This document shows positions 4,930-40,681 of a DNA stretch of 64,000 nt, piece by piece. The stretch comes from Halorubrum trapanicum (lineage in GTDB: Archaea; Halobacteriota; Halobacteria; Halobacteriales; Haloferacaceae), in the NCBI RefSeq assembly GCF_017873555.1, contig NZ_JAGGKE010000004.1, positions 62,001 to 126,000 of the forward strand. The letters are read 5' to 3'. The notes under the pieces were generated by a model. The model was given only the letters and a program-made list of their open reading frames with translations. It was not told the DNA's origin and made no database searches. Both the position numbers and the translations under genes were made by a program. Numbering within the stretch: position 1 is the stretch's first letter; every line of letters begins with the position of its first letter.

Positions 4930-5010
4930 ATGACGCGAGACACTCGCGATCGTTCGGAGGATAGAGGAAGTCGCCTCGCGGCGGCTGGCCGCGAAATTCT
5001 CCGACGATAA
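4930..5010 (+). CDS. Putative 26-codon leader ORF upstream of the synthase
   Basis: An ATG six or so bases after the predicted transcription start opens a 26-codon frame, MTRDTRDRSEDRGSRLAAAG then REILRR, ending TAA at 5008-5010. It is arginine-rich (8 of 26) with two leucines. It fills part of a 323-bp gap (4758-5080) that holds no other gene. The stop is 70 bp before the synthase start. It could be a regulatory upstream ORF or simply an accidental frame; no homologue is known to me. Confidence 0.35.
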   Translation: MTRDTRDRSEDRGSRLAAAGREILRR

Positions 5011-10510: not shown

Positions 10511-10813
10511 CTGCGGTGGCGCGTGCCGACGAGCGCCCAGAGGGCGCGAGTCGCACGCGCGAGGGAGTCGGCCGACCGAAGGGAGGCCGACGAGGCTGGG
10601 GAGGCGTGAGGTGCTGTGCGGTCGCGGTCGGATGGGACTCAAAGGGGCAGTCGCCGGCGGCTCCGCCGCCGGCTGCCCGTGGCGCACAGCGCCACGCTGC
10701 CGCGAGGCCGGCGTAGGCGACGCAAGTACCGCAGGGAGGGAGCGGCAGCGACCGACCGAGGAACGCAGCGAGCGTACGCCGGCCTCGCGGCAGGGGCTTT
10801 GGAGGTGTTCACC
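10511..10813 (+). repeat. Structured repeat element, copy B
   Basis: Stem P1 pairs GCGCGTGC (10519-10526) with GCACGCGC (10553-10560) around a GCGCCC/GGGCGC hairpin. P3 pairs GTCGGCC (10567-10573) with GGCCGAC (10585-10591). The core from 10592 carries GAGGCTGGGGAGG and GGGACTCAAAGGGGCAG. P4 is a perfect 18-bp stem, 10697-10714 with 10776-10793. The tail GGGGCTTTGGAGGTGTTC ends the element. A TATA-like TATAAAT (10500-10506) precedes it. Unlike the others, its two-hairpin module lies between core and P4 (10650-10699). The rest of the gap to 10890 holds only a decayed second tail. It lies between the convergent ilvA and trxB. Confidence 0.85.
10650..10699 (+). repeat. Nested two-hairpin module in copy B (variant)
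   Basis: Same plan as the modules in A and E: GTCGCCGGCG...CGCCGGCTGCC, then a second hairpin, ending CGCTG. The second hairpin differs completely (GTGGCGC/GCGCCAC arms), so pairing is kept while sequence is not. It is inserted between the core and stem P4. Confidence 0.7.
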
Positions 10814-34251: not shown

Positions 34252-34623
34252 CTGCGGTGGCGCGCCCCGGTGAGCGGCCCGAAGGGCCGCGAACCGCGAG
34301 GGACCGAAGGTCCCTCTGGCAGCCGGCGCGTAGCGCCGGCGACGACGGTGCGAGGGAGTCAGTCGCCGGAGCGAAGCGACGGCGACTGACGAGGCTGGGG
34401 AGGCGTGAGGCGCGGTGCTGTGCGGGGCGGGACTCAAAGGGGCAGCCGGGAGGGCGCCGGAGGCGACGCAAGCACCGCAACGAAGGAGCGAGCAACGCGA
34501 GCGACTGAGTGAGGAGCACAGCGAGCGTCCGGCGCCCTCCCGGCTGGGGCTTTGGAGGTATTCACCGCAGAGAAGCCAGATACGTAGTACCGAACGGCTG
34601 GGGCTTTGGCGGTGTTCGTCGCC
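34252..34623 (+). repeat. Structured repeat element, copy C
   Basis: P1 region with a GCGGCCC/GGGCCGC hairpin; an inverted two-hairpin module (34296-34343); P3 10-bp stem 34358-34367 with 34381-34390; core from 34391 with GAGGCTGGGGAGG and GGGACTCAAAGGGGCAG; P4 a perfect 19-bp stem 34443-34461 with 34528-34546; tail GGGGCTTTGGAGGTATTC to 34566. A second tail unit, GGCTGGGGCTTTGGCGG, ends near 34623. In this copy P1's outer 8-bp arms are poorly conserved. It fills the gap between the convergent kynU and the membrane protein. Confidence 0.85.
34296..34343 (-). repeat. Nested module in copy C, inverted
   Basis: Almost exact reverse complement of the modules in A and E. It lies in the P1 region rather than after it. 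Confidence 0.75.
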
Positions 34624-40136: not shown

Positions 40137-40232
40137 CGGGACGACTGGACGGATTCCGGTCAGCACGGAGACGGCGGCGACCGATGCGATATTTAAATAC
40201 CCGAGAGCGGTGGCGTCAGTTATTTATAAATA

Positions 40233-40608
40233 GCGGTGGGTCGGCGCGTGCCTGCGAGGCCGCCTTGCGGCCGAGCCGCGAGGGACCTTCGGTCCCTCGG
40301 GAAGCCGGCGCGTAGCGCCGGCGACAGCACGCGCGAGGGAGTCGCTGGCTCCCGGAGCGAAGCGGAGGGTGCCAGCGACGAGGCTGGGGAGGTGTGAGGT
40401 GCCGTGCGGAGCGGGGCGGGACTCAAAGGGGCAGTCGCGAGGCCGGCGCACACTCGTTGCGCTCCTCGCTCGTTCGCTCCGCTCACTCGCTGCGGTGCTT
40501 ACGTCGTCTGCGCCGGCCTCGCGGCTGGGGCTTTGGCGGTGTCATTCGTCAATCTAGTAGCAGCCAATTATGAGCGAGCGGGTGGGGATTTGGCGATGTT
40601 CGCCGCCG
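40233..40608 (+). repeat. Structured repeat element, copy D
   Basis: P1 pairs GCGCGTGC (40244-40251) with GCACGCGC (40327-40334). Its loop holds a GGCCG/CGGCC hairpin and an inverted two-hairpin module. P3 is a 9-bp stem, 40341-40349 with 40371-40379. The core starts at 40380. P4 is a 19-bp stem, 40432-40450 with 40509-40527, with one G-T wobble. The tail has TTTGGCGGTG, and a second tail unit with TTATG ahead runs 40567-40608. TTTATAA boxes flank both sides (40223-40230 and 40624-40630). This explains the whole 545-bp gap between convergent genes. Confidence 0.85.
40278..40325 (-). repeat. Nested module in copy D, inverted
   Basis: Reverse complement of the A/E module, placed inside the loop of stem P1 as in copy C. 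Confidence 0.75.
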
Positions 40609-40681
40609 ATCCACGACCAGTCATTTATAAGTGACCACCGCCGGCGTCACCGTTCGACGAAAGCGATCGGTCCGAGAAGTC

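Follow-up and report, generated by a model that had tools for sequence, protein, structure and literature searches.

Copy D, one of five copies (A to E) of a repeat element found in the 64,000-nt stretch of Halorubrum trapanicum DNA that we analysed (“the window”, C4:62001-126000 of a 3.08 Mb draft genome in 30 contigs), raises a simple question: has the segment between the arms of its P4 hairpin been turned around, and, if so, how did this happen and does the orientation matter? The elements are dispersed, non-coding and rich in hairpins, with about 100 of them in this genome; each spans ≈ 260 nt or more and is composed of several helices with conserved boxes in between. Copy D has convergent genes on both sides, and its parts are listed below together with the P4 regions of the other copies in the window.

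Table 1. Positions in the window of copy D, its surroundings, and the P4 regions of copies A, B, C, and E.
Feature	Position	Strand	Remarks
Copy D, whole element	40233..40543	+	conserved GCGGTGG start to GGGGCTTTGGCGGTG tail
TATA-like motif TTTATAA	40222..40230	+	5′ of the conserved start of copy D
Second motif, TATTTAAATA	40190-40199		upstream of copy D
Copy D anchor box, GGGACTCAAAGGGGC	40418..40432	+	
Copy D P4 5′ arm, CAGTCGCGAGGCCGGCGCA	40432..40450	+	19 nt
Copy D P4 core	40451..40508	-	58 nt, inverted relative to the family; ladder-forming G/A-rich strand is minus
Copy D P4 3′ arm, TGCGCCGGCCTCGCGGCTG	40509..40527	+	19 nt
Copy D tail box, CTGGGGCTTTGG	40525..40536	+	
Degenerate “solo” tail unit, TTATGAGCGAGCGGGTGGGGATTTGGCGATGTTCGCCGCCG	40566..40609	+	3′ of copy D
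Copy B P4 core	10716..10774	+	forward; arms 10697-10715 and 10775-10793
Copy C P4 core	34462..34527	+	forward; arms 34443-34461 and 34528-34546
Copy A anchor and P4	3220..3329	-	forward on its own strand; low end approximate
Copy E anchor and P4	58126..58236	+	forward; end approximate

The reversal in copy D is exactly where the original prediction had placed it: positions 40491-40505 read TGCGGTGCTTACGTC, which reverse-complements to GACGTAAGCACCGCA, and the forward motif is found as GACGCAAGTACCGCA in copy B (10719-10733) and as GACGCAAGCACCGCA in copy C (34465-34479). The flip in place, bounded by the arms, stands as well, with its extent corrected from the motif alone to all 58 nt of the core. 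The arms, taken to be intact over 19 bp, are both present at 19 nt, but are formed by 18 Watson–Crick pairs plus one G–T, with a longest perfect run of 15; the retained G–T pair is uninformative on non-reciprocal copying. When turned back, the core of copy D reaches a local alignment score of 55 out of a possible 61 against the closest forward copies of its own genome, in comparison with 7–9 unturned, which is far beyond chance. It is a reverse complement lying between the two stem halves with its length kept, as in template-switch inversions. We consider it quite probable that a mutation at the palindrome turned this core around in situ, on the branch leading to this genome, and that the same has recurred independently at many copies.

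Orthologous sites give the direction of the change. In nine related species (G010, G022, G043, G050, G029, G048, G019, G027, and G037), the element has a forward core and is flanked by the same pair of convergent genes, while in other relatives the block is absent or a remnant; several lack the whole intergenic block (spacers of 34–81 nt), and the element ends could not be fixed. Turned back, the core of copy D is 59/61 identical to that of G043 and to that of G048, and matches G029 at 48/48 positions over the part not split by an insert, whereas paralogues from its own genome align lower. The same picture is found at six other inverted copies, where 14 of 14 orthologues with a scoreable core are forward (G010, G022, G043, and G050), and where L028 and L033, turned back, are each one or two bases away from one orthologue. 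Since the orthologues are forward at D and at these six loci, the inversions are, as far as their sequences tell, derived, lineage-specific, and mostly independent. In two orthologous pairs both members are inverted, with different cores: G007/G011, and L049 of this genome with L193 (G027). A chance coincidence is plausible for these pairs; with L193 inverted at the L049 site, independent origin is not established for all loci.

The orthologues also bear on a different origin, in which copy D would have received its core by ectopic gene conversion or insertion from an already inverted copy. The D-type core occurs exactly in three named Halorubrum species and also at non-orthologous sites in other species, so inter-copy conversion happens or has happened, and copying from a donor is possible; moreover, the arms vary among orthologues. 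Yet no other inverted copy in this genome has the D core, the best of them, L043, scoring 47 against the 59/61 of the orthologues, and we regard such a transfer as improbable.

How often the family has been rearranged can be seen from the other copies. The anchor GGGACTCAAAGGGGC is present exactly in ≈ 95 places of the genome, and with up to 2 mismatches it has 129 matches in comparison with 6 for a control; in the single-contig relative G022 it occurs 145 times, divided 71 to 74 between the strands. Among 100 copies of this genome read for P4 orientation, 88 are forward (87 plus L065, which was scored “both” but reads forward), 8 are inverted (L011, L028, L033, L043, L047, which is copy D, L049, L080, and L085), and 2 have no core (L037 and L051, both unscored); the two remaining unscored copies, L060 and L108, are forward but split by inserts and were left out of the totals. 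The recurrent rearrangement that had been suggested is thus borne out by 8 of the 96 scoreable copies in this genome, together with 20 more inverted loci elsewhere in the genus. A scan of 52 genomes of the genus with two comparable patterns found 1,311 forward and 26 inverted copies, the latter in 17 genomes. The inverted cores fall into different sequence subtypes, and therefore do not represent one expanded inverted lineage. A single inversion of P2, in L024, indicates that P4 is not the only part of the element affected. The large excess of forward copies can be explained by selection or by rare flipping together with copy turnover, and is no proof of selection.

With the same patterns, the inverted share is higher here than in the other genomes (5/71 vs. 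21/1,266; Fisher p = 0.010), and such an excess in a 30-contig draft (G000) would also be expected if a short-read assembler or gap closer had joined the core of D backwards across the hairpin. Several contigs of this genome start or stop at or close to elements, and poly-G junk lies upstream of the inverted core of L043 (C4:55180-56400, outside the window; the long poly-G is within the element and looks like sequencing or assembly junk). Because of this excess and the junk near L043, some of the inversions in this genome, D included, could be assembly errors. Inverted copies are nevertheless also present in the independently assembled 2–3-contig genomes G036 and G048, the arms (15–19 bp) are below usual read lengths, and the flips are internally consistent in Class II copies. 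An artefact of assembly or library is, on balance, unlikely for D, although it is the less unlikely of this and the transfer from a donor copy.

The breakpoints of the inversions vary. In L184, L188, L191, and L196, an asymmetric inner arm was flipped with the core, leaving a perfect outer arm of just 11–14 bp, and the flipped segment of L190 and L201 includes a hairpin module that had been inserted in the core. Among inverted copies, the shortest perfect outer arms are below 10 bp and the longest are 19 bp, and perfect arm runs are longer in inverted than in forward copies (median 19 vs. 16; one-sided p = 0.034). This bears directly on the suggestion that the segment acts as a switch, that is, a programmed invertible element (phase variation) with the arms as recombination sites. 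Inverted repeats do flank a segment that is found in both orientations within the family, but arms and breakpoints are specific to each copy, with neither common sites nor fixed breakpoints, forward cores make up 98% of the copies scored by pattern in the genus, relatives surveyed at the orthologous sites have forward cores, and P2, too, flips once. These observations do not support the suggestion, and a switch is very improbable.

That breakpoints vary, that arms are peculiar to each copy, and that homologies are short speaks against inversion by a site-specific recombinase; the sequences favour template switching, or else inversion through short homologies, at hairpins. In the mutation at the palindrome that we prefer for D, a replicating strand would stall at the P4 hairpin and switch template within the complementary arms; the core would then be copied backwards, and a return to the original template would leave a reverse-complemented core between intact arms. 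We infer a replicative template-switch step of this kind, rather than recombination or the repair of a break. In L085, the core is inverted and the 3′ arm has become fully complementary to the 5′ arm, while the arms of its relatives are imperfect, which points to a non-reciprocal product. Reciprocal recombination would give the same end product in most copies, and only L085 and the short arms favour template switching over it.

The other unusual feature is the fold of the core itself. The G/A-rich strand is predicted to form a hairpin in which steps of two Watson–Crick base pairs alternate with tandem GA/GA mismatches, ending in a short closing loop. The mean ungapped length of this ladder in 80 copies is 10.9 steps on the G/A strand, in comparison with 2.9 on the complementary strand. 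In the 21 gap-free copies of alignment A1, 99% of the cells pair, and both partners have changed in 11 of the 15 pairs; covariation scores 0.50, as against 0.19 ± 0.02 when shuffled and ≤0.10 when slid, the slid control leaning in favour of the structure as this was derived from one of the 21 aligned copies. RNA nearest-neighbour parameters agree weakly, giving the G/A strand the lower energy in 68 of 79 copies. The mismatch columns are GA/GA in nearly every copy. Template switching would place GA opposite TC, so the retention of GA/GA suggests that the folding of one strand is under selection. In terms of sequence this is direct evidence that one particular strand of the elements must fold, and it points to selection acting on that strand as RNA or single-stranded DNA.

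Since inversion shifts the ladder-forming strand to the opposite side, orientation is expected to matter, and it probably does so for the role of the element. That orientation may not matter, as had been proposed, is rejected in view of the strand-specific, covarying ladder, and sits badly with the forward excess in the genus. Predicted energies for copy D are −57.2 kcal/mol in its present orientation and −61.7 kcal/mol after turning the core back. The ladders are still intact in the scored inverted cores of this genome; for this reason the flips look recent or tolerated. Inversion probably impairs the affected copy rather than toggling it. More tentatively, the P4 core could be an abundant, undescribed structured RNA or single-stranded DNA ladder of the Haloferacaceae, with inverted copies as strand-swap or loss-of-function alleles, a reading that we hold to be possible rather than probable. 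TATA-like motifs upstream of copy D form a possible promoter, and motifs of this kind also lie 5′ of many other copies, a hint that the element may be transcribed.

The inversion of D is real, derived, and recurrent, and is of a known kind of mutation. In RNA genes, template switching makes loop inversions, mostly on recent branches and alongside compensatory stem changes (Monttinen and Loytynoja 2022, PMC8794818); as here, the loop is reverse-complemented between intact stem halves. Those loops are typically 4 nt, and at most 7–8 nt, whereas the core here is 58 nt and may reach ≈ 110 nt; further differences are that the inversion recurs in a family of roughly 100 copies and that the core is itself a base-paired ladder. 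The chloroplast inversions associated with small hairpins, as summarised in PMC12928735, comprise 5–50 bp between inverted repeats of 11–24 bp, and are similar in that short inverted repeats recurrently flip the intervening segment; the present case differs in belonging to another domain of life, to a defined repeat family, and to a strand-specific folded core. The ladder, in what is apparently an undescribed repeat family, is the more novel part of these findings in comparison with the inversion.

Taken as they are, the ≈ 28 inversions, apparently mostly independent and with ancestral orientation and arm lengths known, amount to a natural replicate experiment, and with more genomes the rate of hairpin template switching in archaea, and its dependence on arm length, would become estimable. 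The GA/GA mismatches beside covarying pairs make it possible to separate selection on a fold from mutational repair of a palindrome. The inversions show palindromic DNA scrambling itself, with no sign of a genetic switch.

As for the identity of the family, scans with the Rfam 15 covariance models (gathering and E-value) matched the repeat to no family, copy C giving just a sub-threshold match to a CRISPR repeat, and we found no description of the repeat in the open-access literature. A searched phage collection held no match; plasmids of Halobaculum and other haloarchaea have weak partial ones. BLASTN and motif searches against the 13 TnpB loci of the genome returned matches at chance level only, without right-end similarity. 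Like the PATEs and IS605-type ends of haloarchaea (PMC3119063), the elements are non-coding, hairpin-rich, and of high copy number, with smaller modules within palindromes; unlike PATEs, the repeat has tandem tail units, no identified transposon ends, and no similarity to TnpB ends. Like REP/BIME (PMC12306157, PMC2817692), it consists of intergenic palindromes scattered through the genome in about 100 copies, but it is longer (≈ 260 nt or more), with several helices and conserved boxes between them. A scan across the Haloferacaceae, made for the anchor box, found it with at most one mismatch in 121 of 170 genomes, outside the genus largely as the variant GGGACTGAAAGGGGC. This variant is present in many other genera of the Haloferacaceae, sometimes as opposite-strand pairs ≈ 180–330 bp apart. 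An order-wide two-box pattern had too narrow a gap, mostly caught copies in which a hairpin module replaces P4, and was not used for the distribution. Elsewhere in the window, a TnpB-type domain (PF07282; 29623-29826, plus strand), one of the 13 in the genome, is unlike the repeat, and the sole match of the window scan with Rfam, above the gathering score, is a leuA-Halobacteria RNA (RF03001) at 4950-5002.

Several further features of the element were observed. By a simple GC3 frame call, the flanking genes are convergent at 41 and divergent at 7 of the 76 copies of this genome with both flanks called. In nearly all copies, the anchor and tail boxes, CAAAG-GGG-CAG and CTG-GGG-CTTTG, would pair around an internal GGG/GGG loop; more speculatively, these and other conserved G runs could form a G-quadruplex. 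Tandem “solo” tail units of ≈ 55 bp (TTTATAA..GAGCGGCTGGGGCTTTGGAGGTGTTCGCCG..GATC) lie 3′ of most copies and decay with distance, with four in a row in G022 and further tandem sites at L110, L111, and L113. Two-hairpin modules of ≈ 50–60 nt, which recall small palindrome-targeting mobile repeats, sit at a few fixed points of P4 in copy B (about 10647-10697), L014, L022, L023, L050, L082, L107, and L108; their hairpin sequences vary while the pairing is kept. The linker before the anchor box has a longer GA-rich module, of roughly 85–115 nt, in L009, L031, L049, and L110 (G010). In L037 and L051, the whole core is deleted, and P4 is reduced to a short stem, CAG..CGCGAGTCCTCGCG..CTG.
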